A stretch of 31,834 nucleotides of DNA from a virus, in IMG/VR virus record IMGVR_UViG_3300020187_000123, positions 1 through 31,834 of that record; one strand, given 5' to 3'. This document shows, piece by piece, positions 17,559 to 31,755 of the stretch. The position numbers and the translations under genes are program-made. The notes below the pieces were generated by a model. That model was not told the DNA's origin. It worked only from the letters and a program-made list of their open reading frames with translations, and did not search any database. How positions within the stretch are numbered: the first letter of the stretch is position 1; every line of letters begins with the position of its first letter.

Positions 17559-18124
17559 GAAAGTGCCTCGACAAAATCAACCTCATAAGTAAAAAACATT
17601 CCCGCACCTAATTTATAACTCTGCACATCGTTGGCTAGGCGTACAGTAAATGGCACATCGTCATAAGTGACTGTCTCGGTTCCTACGGCCTCAATTAATG
17701 GAGGCGTGATTAACATTGCACCATTGCCACTTCTGTCAGCCGTAAGCATATAAACCTTGTCATGCCCTGAGAACTTAATAACGTCACCCGCCTTTAAAGC
17801 CCCTGTAAGACCCGATACTGTAACCGAGGCCAACCCTTTAGCCGTTGCAGAAGTGCTCACTGTGCCGCTTGCTGTGCCGCTTGTGCTGCTTATTGCTGTG
17901 GGTACAATCGTAAAGACTCCATGACTGCCTTGTTGAGACACCACAAAAGCAAATACAGGGTTAAATTCAGCGCGTGTCATAGGCGCATAAGACGCAGTAA
18001 AGGCCCACTTTTGACCGCCAATCTTTCTGCTTTGCATACGCCCATTAACTGCGCTGCTCATTAGGCTAGGGCTGTCAGATTGTAGATTGATGCCGTTAAA
18101 GGCTGGGCTGGTTGGATAACTCAT
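17555..18124 (-). CDS. Distal tail / minor tail protein
   Basis: A 189-residue beta-rich protein between tape measure and tail-tip genes, the usual place of a distal tail protein. GDVIKFSGHDKVYMLTADRSGNG resembles a hub insertion repeated in related tail proteins; the end reads SYKLGAGMFFTYEVDFVEAL. Start overlaps the tape-measure stop as ATGA. Confidence 0.75.
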   Translation of the reverse strand: MSYPTSPAFNGINLQSDSPSLMSSAVNGRMQSRKIGGQKWAFTASYAPMTRAEFNPVFAFVVSQQGSHGVFTIVPTAISSTSGTASGTVSTSATAKGLASVTVSGLTGALKAGDVIKFSGHDKVYMLTADRSGNGAMLITPPLIEAVGTETVTYDDVPFTVRLANDVQSYKLGAGMFFTYEVDFVEALS

Positions 18125-19998
18125 GCTAGGGCTGTCCTCCCGTTTTCATTGAGAGATTGATTGATTAGGCTCATCAGTGTTCCGCGCCTCTTGGTGAGCA
18201 ATTCATCGAAGCCCTCGGTATCATTTGCAGAGATATTGATGGTGTAATTGCCACCGCCTAATTGATTATTAGGAACCACATTGGCTGCTTGATTTGGAAC
18301 GATAAGCTCAGGCCCGCGCTCTCCTACGATGTACGGGCTACCCGCACTCATTGGCCCGCCTTTTTCACGGAACTGGGTTGCTCTTATTGATTGAACTTGC
18401 ATCATGCCGTTAGCTAAAGCCAAAGCACCAAGGCCGATATTGATAGGGAAAGGCGCAGAAGCCAAGGCTGTAGAAACTGCTTTATAGGTGTTGATCAACG
18501 CATCTTTAAGAGCAAATGACTTATTTAAATCAAAGGCTGCTTTGTAATGTCCACTTAATGCCCCTAGCGTTTCTCTTCCTTCCTCTTTTAGATCACCGAA
18601 ATCTTTTTGTTGAGCTGCTTTTTGCATTGCTGATTGTTTTGATAAATATTGATGAGTTAACTCAATAGACCTGTTTTGACGATATAACTGATCTTGCTCT
18701 GCTAGATCATAATAGGCATTGGTTATGTTTCTAATGGATTCGCTTTGAGCTATTTTATCAGCTTTTGTTTTTTCGGCTGCGGCTGCGGCTGCACTGACTA
18801 AACCATCATCAGCACCAGTACCACCACCAACGGCTTCAATCCCAGCTTTTAACTCATCAAGTTTAATTAATGCCCCATCAAATTTGAACAATTCAATAGG
18901 TTTAAAAGTTGATGCGTATTCACCTAATTTTACTTGCTCATTGAGAGTTATTAGTTCCTTTTCCGCTTTGGCAAGTGAAGTGTTTCTAATCTTCTGCGCT
19001 CTACCAGCAAGTCCTATTTTCTTTTCAGATAATGAAACTATTCTTGTTTCTACAGCTATGATTTTTTGATTCAATGCGTCCATAGTTGGAAGGGCAGAGG
19101 GCAATAAATCAATTAATGAATTAATGGCTTGGCCTGCGGTATTAGCAAAATTAACTAGGCCGTTAAGCATCGAACCCATTGCTGTGACCACAGACTTAGC
19201 AGCCGTAAGAAAGCCAACAGCCACAGTTTTAGCAAACTCTTTCGGGCCTCCTGCGGCTTGCATTGTTGCCTCAATCCATTCTCTTATTGAAACTGTTGCC
19301 GCTTCAATGGTTGGCGCAAGTTCACCAACTGCTCGATTAAAGATGTTAGTAATATAAGAGCCTAATGTGCCTAGCGCATCATTTGCCTTTTCAACGCCTT
19401 TCACTAATCTTTGGCTAAGTCTCAAGCCTAAACGCTCCGCTTCTTGCTCCATTTCAATAATGGCTGCGCTGCCACCTTTTAATGTGTTAACTAAAGCCAC
19501 ACCCTCAGAGTCAAATAGGCGCATAGCTAGACGCACTTTCTCGCCCTGCTGAGTCACACCTTCCATTGCATCTGCAATTGCTTTGAATTGTTGATCAGGA
19601 GCTAGCTTATTAAGAGCGTCTGCGGATAGTCCAAGCTCAATCAATGCGGCTTTAGCTTCGCCTGATCCTGCGGCTGCTTCTGAGATACGCCTGACCATGC
19701 GCTGTAGTCCCATATCTAATGTATTGGACGCAATGCCTGTCAGTTCTGCCGCGTGTCTTAAACCGCCTAATTCAGCCGTTCCTATGCCGATCTTGTCAGC
19801 CATTTTGCCAAGCGCGTCAGTAGACTCAAGAGACTTCTTAATTAGGAATCCAAAGCCAGCCACACCCAACGCAATAAGCGCAGTCTGCATTGAAAAAGCG
19901 ACTTTCTTTATGGCGTTTAAACCCATAGTAACGGCCCGAAAAGACCGCTTAGTTTTATCAACAGCTTTAATGACGATATTTAGATTTTCACTTGCCAT
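18121..19998 (-). CDS. Tape measure protein
   Basis: A 625-residue tail length ruler. It has an N-terminal segment with NIVIKAVDKTKRSFRAV, a hydrophobic stretch near 33-55 (FSMQTALIALGVAGFGFLI), long helical region rich in Lys/Glu/Ala, a poly-Ala patch (SAAAAAAE) and the canonical C-terminus REKGGPMSAGSPYIVGERGPELIVPN. At roughly 0.15 nm per residue the tail would be near 90-95 nm. The ATG at 19998 lies inside the frameshifted chaperone frame. Confidence 0.92.
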   Translation of the reverse strand: MASENLNIVIKAVDKTKRSFRAVTMGLNAIKKVAFSMQTALIALGVAGFGFLIKKSLESTDALGKMADKIGIGTAELGGLRHAAELTGIASNTLDMGLQRMVRRISEAAAGSGEAKAALIELGLSADALNKLAPDQQFKAIADAMEGVTQQGEKVRLAMRLFDSEGVALVNTLKGGSAAIIEMEQEAERLGLRLSQRLVKGVEKANDALGTLGSYITNIFNRAVGELAPTIEAATVSIREWIEATMQAAGGPKEFAKTVAVGFLTAAKSVVTAMGSMLNGLVNFANTAGQAINSLIDLLPSALPTMDALNQKIIAVETRIVSLSEKKIGLAGRAQKIRNTSLAKAEKELITLNEQVKLGEYASTFKPIELFKFDGALIKLDELKAGIEAVGGGTGADDGLVSAAAAAAEKTKADKIAQSESIRNITNAYYDLAEQDQLYRQNRSIELTHQYLSKQSAMQKAAQQKDFGDLKEEGRETLGALSGHYKAAFDLNKSFALKDALINTYKAVSTALASAPFPINIGLGALALANGMMQVQSIRATQFREKGGPMSAGSPYIVGERGPELIVPNQAANVVPNNQLGGGNYTINISANDTEGFDELLTKRRGTLMSLINQSLNENGRTALA

Positions 19999-20125
19999 TC
20001 TTCATCTCCAAAAAAGCTGCCCAAAGTAGTATCTCATCGGTATCTAGGTTCATGATTTCCCCCAGCGTCTTGTGAAGGTGTTCCGCGAGTTGCATGGCGA
20101 AACGTAAATCATGATCCTGTTTTAG
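19988..20125 (-). CDS. GpT-like chaperone extension read by -1 frameshift
   Basis: Forty-five codons in the -1 frame following the slippery site at 20131-20125, ending at TGA 19988. The product continues the upstream chaperone to about 159 residues and contains RFAMQLAEHLHKTLGEI and DEILLWAAFLEM, matching the helical GpT-type domain of tail chaperones. From its own ATG (20095) only 35 residues would be made. It overlaps the tape-measure start by 11 bp. Confidence 0.82.
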   Translation of the reverse strand, partial: LKQDHDLRFAMQLAEHLHKTLGEIMNLDTDEILLWAAFLEMKNGK

Positions 20126-20466
20126 TTTTTTACTGCATCCTCCACAGTGGGCTGATCATCGTCACTCATTTCTGTGACTATTCTGCTAACAACTTCTGGA
20201 TCAACAGTTAAAAGCAATTCAGTCATGTTGGAGCGTGTGAATAACTTCACTCCGTTCTTATCCATAGCCTTGAGAATCAAAGTCATAATCACCGCTTCTG
20301 CTGGCTTATTGTCCCCGTGAAGTTTGAGAACCATACCTTGATCTTTGAAGTTCATGCTGGGCTTGAAATACACTTTTGTTCCCCACTCAGGAACATTCAC
20401 GCATTTAAGATCACCCGACATTCGATCCGAAAAGTGAACTTTTGCTGCTTCTAAAATGTTGCTCAT
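20122..20466 (-). CDS. Tail assembly chaperone (GpG-like)
   Basis: A 114-residue protein between tail tube and tape measure, the place of lambda G. It has the beta strand then helical layout of the family (WGTKVYFKPSMNFKDQGMVLKL, then AVIMTLILKAMDKNGVKLF and the acidic end MSDDDQPTVEDAVKN). The gene ends on GTA-AAA-AAC-TAA, which contains the slippery heptamer A-AAA-AAC in the correct phase. Works with the frameshifted form to keep the tape measure soluble. Confidence 0.82.
   Translation of the reverse strand: MSNILEAAKVHFSDRMSGDLKCVNVPEWGTKVYFKPSMNFKDQGMVLKLHGDNKPAEAVIMTLILKAMDKNGVKLFTRSNMTELLLTVDPEVVSRIVTEMSDDDQPTVEDAVKN
20125..20131 (-). promoter_or_regulatory. Programmed -1 ribosomal frameshift site A-AAA-AAC
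   Basis: The minus-strand heptamer A AAA AAC lies in the X-XXY-YYZ phase of the G-like gene (codons GTA AAA AAC) directly before its TAA stop. A -1 shift enters the T-like frame through CTA at 20125. A strong downstream pseudoknot is not obvious by eye; the stop codon itself may help pause the ribosome. Confidence 0.82.
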
Positions 20467-20555: not shown

Positions 20556-20945
20556 TTATGACACAGTAGATAGAGCCAGTGCGCCAGTACCAGTGAAGCT
20601 GAAAGAAGTCTCAACGATTCCATCAGTGGCGGCACTTACACCAACCTCAGTCACTAGCACTGTCCCCGTGTAAAACTTATCTCCGCTAGACGCTCCCTCT
20701 GCATAGAATGAGATGGTCAAAGAACTTCCCACAGTGATAGAAGTTTGAGCCGCATCTGCTTCATCCCAATACGCTTCCGCAGAACCAGAAAACGAAGTTT
20801 GTCCAGCCGTATAGGTTTTAGCCGCATCACTTAAAGTGGTGGTTTCTATGGTTCCAGCCGTTTGACTGATACTATAGGAACGTAACTCACCAAGAGTGTC
20901 TGAGCCGATTTTTATAATGCCTTCTGAACTATTGTGCGTAGCCAT
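20556..20945 (-). CDS. Major tail tube protein
   Basis: A 129-residue Ser/Thr/Gly-rich beta protein with the tail-tube look: EGIIKIGSDTLGELRSYSISQTAGTIETTTLSDAAKTY, an EAYWDEADAAQTS segment and a strand-rich end. It lies between the head-tail joining genes and the chaperone, with ATG 20945 overlapping the stop of the small upstream gene (TAATG). Confidence 0.85.
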   Translation of the reverse strand: MATHNSSEGIIKIGSDTLGELRSYSISQTAGTIETTTLSDAAKTYTAGQTSFSGSAEAYWDEADAAQTSITVGSSLTISFYAEGASSGDKFYTGTVLVTEVGVSAATDGIVETSFSFTGTGALALSTVS

Positions 20946-31000: not shown

Positions 31001-31727
31001 ACTGACCTCCATTTGATTTATTTTTGTTAATTGATAAGAAATAAAGTTTCTGAAATTGCTTTCTTAGGCTTAAAGCAGATAAGCAATTGGCCTGCCAAAA
31101 TGGATCGTTTCTAGCGTATGTCCATGCAGCCGCTATAGTTTCGTAGTCTCTTCCATCAATCTCACGAATCTTTCTTATGGTGTCGGCCCATTGATTTAAG
31201 TTTGGCTTTTTGAATTTAGAGTCTTGGGCTGTTAAAGATTGATACATACGATCAGCAAAATCTAAATCAAGATCATTAAAATTCAGCTTTGCTGTAGTTT
31301 TAGTTTTTATATATGGTTTTTTATCTGGTTTTATATCTGGTATAGGTTGCTCATATTTGGGTAATCCATTGCTCATATTTGGGTTATCCATTGCCCATTT
31401 TTGGGAAATGAGTATTGGCGCGGCTTTGACGCTAAATTCTGGCATGGAGTACCATTTAGTTCGGTCATATCCAGCCTTGTTGTAATTGCCTGTAATGAGT
31501 GCGCCAGACACTTCTAATTCTTTTAAAAGTCGGCTTATTTTCTTTGCATTTAGATAGGGCCAGATTTCAGCCAAGGCGGTAGCAGAGTTAAACGTCCAAT
31601 AGTAATCATCAATATTTTGATGGTTGTTAGCCCTATTTTTAGTCAACCAAAAACGGAAGTTATTGAGCATCACAGCCTTTTCAACTCCGTATATAACCGC
31701 TTCATCAACATCAAAATGATGTTCCAT
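30891..31727 (-). CDS. Phage replication initiator (O-like), complete right copy
   Basis: A complete 278-residue initiator with TAGGTG before ATG 31727. N-terminal winged helix with AVMLNNFRFWL and SRLLKELE, the DRTKWYSMPEF signature near residues 89-99, a conserved centre WADTIRKIREIDGRDYETIAAAWTYARNDPFWQ, and an Arg/Gln-rich C-terminus. It equals the left copy at the shared 3' part and is about 84-85 percent identical over the N-terminal 214 residues without any gaps. Contains the second iteron set at 31304-31412. Confidence 0.85.
   Translation of the reverse strand: MEHHFDVDEAVIYGVEKAVMLNNFRFWLTKNRANNHQNIDDYYWTFNSATALAEIWPYLNAKKISRLLKELEVSGALITGNYNKAGYDRTKWYSMPEFSVKAAPILISQKWAMDNPNMSNGLPKYEQPIPDIKPDKKPYIKTKTTAKLNFNDLDLDFADRMYQSLTAQDSKFKKPNLNQWADTIRKIREIDGRDYETIAAAWTYARNDPFWQANCLSALSLRKQFQKLYFLSINKNKSNGGQYAGQNNQPVNNSAPARVRAANAERQAQRDRTERAIN
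31304..31412. other. Putative lambda-type replication origin (right copy)
   Basis: Iterons with 22-bp period start at 31347, 31369 and 31391 (TTGCTCATATTTGGGTAAT, the same with GGGTTAT, and TTGCCCATTTTTGGGAAAT), preceded by AT-rich repeats near 31304, 31317 and 31330. Same layout as 219-327 at the expected offset of 31085, but the iteron bases differ in parallel with the diverged initiator. Confidence 0.72.
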
Positions 31728-31755
31728 ATCGCACCTAAAATTTATTAATTTTTAT

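Follow-up and report, generated by a model that had tools for sequence, protein, structure and literature searches.

A candidate −1 frameshift site at the tail chaperone genes of an IMG/VR virus, followed by a conserved three-way-junction RNA

Of the tail assembly chaperones G and GT of phage lambda, GT is reportedly produced by a −1 frameshift, which takes place near the end of G at GGGAAAG and appends the 144-aa T domain. There, the T domain reportedly brings the major tail protein to the tape measure, to which G binds. In HK97, which has the tail chaperone pair gp13/gp14, gp14 is annotated as a −1 frameshift product. Excerpts of published reports place AAAAAAC at the tail chaperone sites of Loki (gp12, where it adjoins the stop), of phiCbK and, tentatively, of Dragolir, and excerpts of PMC5009743 place it at the same position in the archaeal virus HCTV-2. 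According to the same excerpts, A_AAA_AAC is much less slippery than A_AAA_AAG in E. coli, and excerpts of PMC4066793 argue that bacterial ribosomes tolerate AAC-to-AAA re-pairing less readily. A three-way junction that stimulates frameshifting is reported for IS911 (excerpts of PMC5009743 and PMC4066793, citing Rettberg 1999). We found none described at a phage tail chaperone site in excerpts of PMC5009743, PMC4066793, PMC3711429, PMC5313236, PMC6003738, PMC3556154, PMC10885494, PMC7618472, and PMC4493119.

The window, which is the whole 31,834-nt stretch of IMG/VR record IMGVR_UViG_3300020187_000123 that was analyzed, contains tail genes in the order major tail protein, G/T, tape measure, and distal tail protein. 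Its ends (1-667 and 31086-31750) are 89% identical over 669 columns, which probably means that the genome is circular or terminally redundant and that its assembly continued into a strain variant, or else reflects a real gene duplication. The major tail protein gene, the upstream neighbor of G (20556..20945, minus strand), was recognized by phrog_1407 (E = 1.2e−14) and PF06199 (E = 2.1e−5), and the tape measure gene (18121..19998, minus strand) was recognized by phrog_9483 (E = 4.5e−67). Between them, the G-like open reading frame (20122..20466, minus strand) starts with ATG, encodes 114 aa, and ends in GTA AAA AAC TAA. The heptamer A_AAA_AAC (20125..20131, minus strand) is in X_XXY_YYZ phase, as a sequence-only reading of this DNA had proposed; the same reading had placed it one codon before the stop, while in fact it touches TAA at 20124-20122. 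After a slip, translation would continue from the re-paired AAA codon at 20128 through LKQDHDLRFAMQLAEHLHKTLGEIMNLDTDEILLWAAFLEMKNGK, 45 codons in all, to the stop TGA at 19990-19988. This T-like domain (19988..20128, minus strand) overlaps the tape measure start (ATG at 19998) by 11 nt, so that the length and the end point given by the sequence-only reading both hold.

The arrangement resembles that of lambda in that the site lies between the major tail protein and the tape measure, the −1 shift would occur near the end of G, and T would be appended. It differs in having a T of 45 codons, a conserved three-way junction 3′ of the site, and A_AAA_AAC in place of GGGAAAG. The last of these differences had already been pointed out, and yet the heptamer has its precedents in print; Loki gp12/gp13 and phiCbK gp93/gp94 also carry AAAAAAC directly 5′ of the stop. 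On sequence grounds, a programmed −1 frameshift of the lambda G/GT type almost certainly operates at this junction.

G matched PHROG tail assembly chaperones (E = 6.7e−6 and 8.5e−6) but no Pfam family, and a search of its profile against PDB sequences returned one weak match (OSCP, E = 0.018). The PDB structure that best matched the AlphaFold2 model of G (pLDDT 80) was 2ob9, the tail assembly chaperone of HK97 (Z = 11.2, with an rmsd of 3.8 over 102 residues), to which G is only 20% identical over the aligned residues. Further matches were YqbN (3klu, Z = 6.0, rmsd 3.8 over 96 residues) and 3fgx (Z = 5.9). G is predicted from this model to have the tail chaperone fold of HK97 gp13 and YqbN.

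The 46-aa T frame was modeled by AlphaFold2 as three helices (pLDDT 86), in agreement with the helical domain that had been proposed for it. T matched PHROG tail families (E = 1.6e−4); among 14 T sequences, 8 matched the PHROG "tail protein" phrog_337 at E ≤ 0.01 (best, 1.3e−4), and 1 matched P2 GpE (E = 0.019). The match of T to lambda T alone in hhalign was weak (probability 2.6, 29% over 35 columns). The gene order, the PHROG matches on both halves, and the HK97 chaperone fold of G bear out the suggestion of a lambda-like tail chaperone pair.

The T frame is under purifying selection. It is free of stops in 50 sequences, in all of which both other frames contain stops, and its median dN/dS is 0.12 (366 of 1225 pairs with usable dS). 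In all 40 additional loci listed among distant relatives found through T, T is in the −1 frame relative to the upstream open reading frame. T might instead be a separate protein made from an internal start, without any fusion, and the six relatives that lack the heptamer give this idea something to build on, as they keep T and have a TTG codon within its frame. However, conservation of T begins right after the slip site (LKQDHDL), 5′ of any usual start codon; the TTG is replaced by TTA, CTA, or CTG in many relatives; and a fused PHROG family, phrog_16513, spans both halves, with positions 4-106 aligned to G and 117-155 to T. We therefore regard an internal start as extremely unlikely.

Taken alone, the heptamer is weak evidence, because in-phase motifs near the ends of open reading frames are not rare in the window. 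AAAAAAC occurs 11 times there on both strands, and 9 in-phase X_XXY_YYZ motifs were found within the last 10 codons of the 119 open frames of at least 60 codons. Such counts would leave room for a chance match of no function, which is excluded by the conservation of the heptamer in relatives. The genome-contig search for relatives found none. We read the junction in 67 sequences, comprising the window, 64 of 65 IMG/VR loci found by profile search (L054 ran off its contig), and two named phages. A_AAA_AAC is kept in 61 of these, directly 5′ of the stop in 59 and one codon earlier in 2, and the heptamer and the −1 frame are both present in 12 of 12 close IMG/VR loci. Heptamer conservation extends to relatives with 33 to 39% identity in G, the two named phages included, which makes the probability of a chance match very small. 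The sequence-only reading had made its case depend on conservation of the heptamer and of the −1 frame in relatives, and both are conserved.

The same conclusion can be drawn at the level of single bases. The set of junctions, to which we added 18 T-only loci placed by their in-phase A6 run and all read beforehand, comprised 60 distinct junctions, of which 53 have AAAAAAC, 3 have AAAAAAG, and 4 have ACGGGAA. The codon that supplies the first A of the heptamer varies (GTA, ATA, ACA, GCA, CTA, GAA, or AAA), while its third base is always A. That codon encodes V, I, T, A, or L in 50 of the 56 heptamer-bearing junctions, and the third base is A in 50/50, compared to 24% A at the third positions of the other V/A/T/I codons of 49 G genes.

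Fusion could also arise if RNA polymerase slipped on the A6 run and added an A, since an extra A yields the same product from altered transcripts. The A9 runs of the Pelagibacter relatives HTVC202P and HTVC026P make such slipping plausible. However, the A_AAA_AAC reading phase is the same in 61/61 heptamer-bearing sequences, which polymerase slipping does not require; most runs are A6 only; and the conserved 3′ RNA, with its fixed spacing, points to the ribosome. Polymerase slipping is for these reasons very unlikely. An upstream Shine-Dalgarno-like stimulator is not conserved, with GAGG, GGAG, or AGGA found within 17 nt in only 33 of the 60 distinct junctions; the window itself has GGAGG upstream of the heptamer.

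The predicted three-way-junction RNA (20046..20118, minus strand) begins 6 nt 3′ of the heptamer. In the window, its plan consists of the 6-nt spacer, a 12-pair basal stem with one mismatch, and two inner hairpins. The 5′ arm of the basal stem (20106..20118, minus strand, comprising 20118-20116 and 20114-20106) pairs with the 3′ arm (20046..20058, minus strand, comprising 20058-20050 and 20048-20046), with 95.5% of the cells of the alignment of relatives (A6, below) paired. Hairpin 1 (20080..20103, minus strand, 20103-20097 with 20086-20080) and hairpin 2 (20059..20078, minus strand, 20078-20073 with 20064-20059) are less well kept, with 76.9% and 82.0% of cells paired, respectively. Folding of the 100 nt that follow the heptamer gave −24.6 kcal/mol (z = −3.16, 1/200 shuffles). 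Windows of 60, 86, and 35 nt at the same site gave no signal (z = −0.27, −0.05, and 1.35) because they cut the basal stem, and the signal is confined to the 100-nt window. A search of Rfam with window positions 19900-20300 gave no match at E ≤ 1.

We folded 56 distinct relatives, and most members of the core group shared this plan. The structure alignment, A6, holds 50 sequences and omits 6 of the 56 distinct downstream sequences (L066, L067, L068, and L145-L147). Against dinucleotide shuffles, z was below −2 in 50/50 core relatives (median, −5.1). Against shuffles that preserve the T protein, z was below −2 in 42/50 (median, −2.9), and the other 8 lay above that line. In a z scan of five loci, the minimum fell just after the heptamer in four and elsewhere in L058. 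The 6-nt spacing holds in L061 despite its moved stop codon. In L049, there is a second low-z stretch (z = −6.6) inside the G gene, about 78 to 160 nt in.

Double-change cells on A6 numbered 49, compared to 21.3 in shuffled alignments, and 0/500 shuffles were as high. On a tree built from G alone, 11 branch changes altered both partners and preserved the pairing; 8 of them fall in the basal stem, 3 in hairpin 1, and none in hairpin 2. In 500 partner permutations, the mean was 1.6 and the maximum was 7, so that 0/500 reached the observed count, and the slid controls yielded 0 to 6. Among single changes, the pair-breaking fraction was 0.32 versus 0.41 in permutations, which is not clearly lower (93/500 as low). 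RNAalifold, run on the 50 sequences, returned as its own consensus only a 9-pair basal stem. A covariance model, R1, matched 19 stretches in 24 sources and was set aside as evidence of structure, as its matches lean on shared coding sequence.

The protein could account for part of the pairing, because the basal stem sits in codons for conserved residues (DHDL and EIM). Taken further, this would mean that the heptamer suffices for frameshifting and that conserved T residues and base composition give rise to the fold as a by-product, with no role for the RNA. In line with such a by-product, relatives with A_AAA_AAG retain similar residues, and some of them retain partial basal pairing without overall stability. 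However, stability exceeds that of the protein-preserving shuffles, compensatory changes are far more frequent than the permutations predict, and pairs that are synonymously variable on both sides covary. Columns 8-78 hold GC 23 times, AU 13 times, GU 3 times, and others 11 times, and columns 18-68 hold UA 41 times, CG 5 times, UG 2 times, and others 2 times. We consider a fold without a role unlikely and are highly confident that the three-way junction exists as a conserved feature of the RNA, the basal stem being its most secure part.

Stimulation of frameshifting is the probable role of the junction, judging from its position and from the parallel with IS911. According to the excerpts on IS911, both systems place a three-way junction on the 3′ side of a slippery, A-rich heptamer in bacteria, while IS911 is a transposon with an SD-like GGAG stimulator upstream and the SD-like motif here is not conserved. 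Among other tail chaperone sites with AAAAAAC, those of Loki, IMEAB3, and Pavpe01 are followed after 6 to 8 nt by a simple hairpin, unlike the junction here, and those of Shy and QH3 by no clear hairpin. A rule that AAAAAAC always comes with 3′ structure was dropped after examination of eight Loki-family phages in 60-nt windows. Those with AAAAAAC showed a hairpin in Loki (z = −4.39), IMEAB3 (−2.14), and Pavpe01 (−2.00) and none clear in QH3 (−1.60) or Shy (+1.61); those with GGGAAAC showed none in RcTitan (+1.40), KL1 (+0.78), or Guyu (−0.59). phiCbK has a strong 3′ fold, seen in a single sequence. In lambda (L148, about 524-594), a similar branched fold is possible 7 nt past GGGAAAG and is not clearly above shuffles (z = −1.87, 9/200 shuffles). 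The lambda relatives are all 99% identical, which allows no covariation test, and they were left out.

The search was widened to the best 80 of 364 and the best 80 of 371 relatives. Of the 40 new loci found through T, 28 have A_AAA_AAG, placed one codon before the stop, 11 have A_CTA_AAG, and 1 has ATT AAA AAA AAA. In the A_AAA_AAG relatives, 23 distinct 3′ sequences were mostly unstructured (82 nt; median z = −0.76, 5 below −2). At 100 nt, z was below −2 in 46/50 A_AAA_AAC sequences and in 4/23 A_AAA_AAG sequences (Mann-Whitney P = 7e−10, kinship ignored), a contrast that may rest on one or two evolutionary events. The four distinct A_CTA_AAG sequences were intermediate (z below −2 in 1/4 at 82 nt and in 3/4 at 100 nt). 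In the 11 loci of the L212-L228 group, the A_CTA_AAG context offers only an A_AAG tetramer. L066 and L067, two distant relatives with A_AAA_AAC, form a long-range stem of another build at similar spacing (z = −4.1 and −6.0), and the Pelagibacter phages HTVC202P (L068) and HTVC026P (L309) have longer A runs and weaker folds. In both of these phages, an A9 run precedes C TAA at the same place, and the T half is unannotated in both records; polymerase slipping is possible at these runs. Together, the variants suggest a trade-off between slip site and RNA structure, with which the Loki family is not strictly in line.

Six contigs (L039, L041-L044, and L046; four distinct 180-nt junctions) have GCA CGG GAA TAG, with ACGGGAA in place of the heptamer. 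T is conserved in them, and so is the RNA fold (z = −4.6 to −6.2 in three distinct 82-nt sequences). The last −1-frame stop lies only 16 nt from TAG, and the tape measure open reading frame that follows T has 632 codons in L039 and L046 and reaches the end of the locus in L041. That six loci keep T and the fold without the heptamer counts against our main reading, as does the low slipperiness of A_AAA_AAC in E. coli. One reading of this lineage is that, while the stop codon occupies the A site, the P-site GAA tRNA may slip to GGA. As a tentative extension, which we think rather doubtful, a single chaperone family would have A_AAA_AAC lineages that depend on the three-way-junction stimulator and A_AAA_AAG lineages that do not, while L039 and the five others would have moved to GCA CGG GAA TAG, where −1 slipping without an X_XXY_YYZ heptamer would be driven by the RNA junction, perhaps together with a stop codon standing in the A site.

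For the window and its A_AAA_AAC relatives, a lambda G/GT-type −1 frameshift that combines a weak slip site with an IS911-like 3′ stimulator is very likely. We infer the slipping itself, its rate, the stimulation by the fold, and the roles of G and G-T as follows. The majority of ribosomes would terminate at TAA and release G, the tail assembly chaperone, while a minority would slip one base back on A_AAA_AAC and produce G-T. The three-way junction, 6 nt past the heptamer, would make the ribosome pause and raise the slip rate, as in IS911. The helical T domain of G-T would, by analogy with lambda, bring the major tail protein to the G-bound tape measure.

A frameshift at this place is in itself ordinary for phages, and AAAAAAC has already been reported at tail chaperones. 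Its chief consequence is a corrected annotation, as the T half is lost when genes are called from long open reading frames. The sequence-only reading had anticipated this loss, and the stretch between chaperone and tape measure is indeed blank in DSL-LC06 and HTVC202P. What is new beyond that reading is the conserved, covarying three-way junction 3′ of a phage tail chaperone site. The natural variants, A_AAA_AAC with the junction, A_AAA_AAG mostly without it, and the junction without the heptamer, form a test set for how site strength and RNA structure set the ratio of G to G-T.
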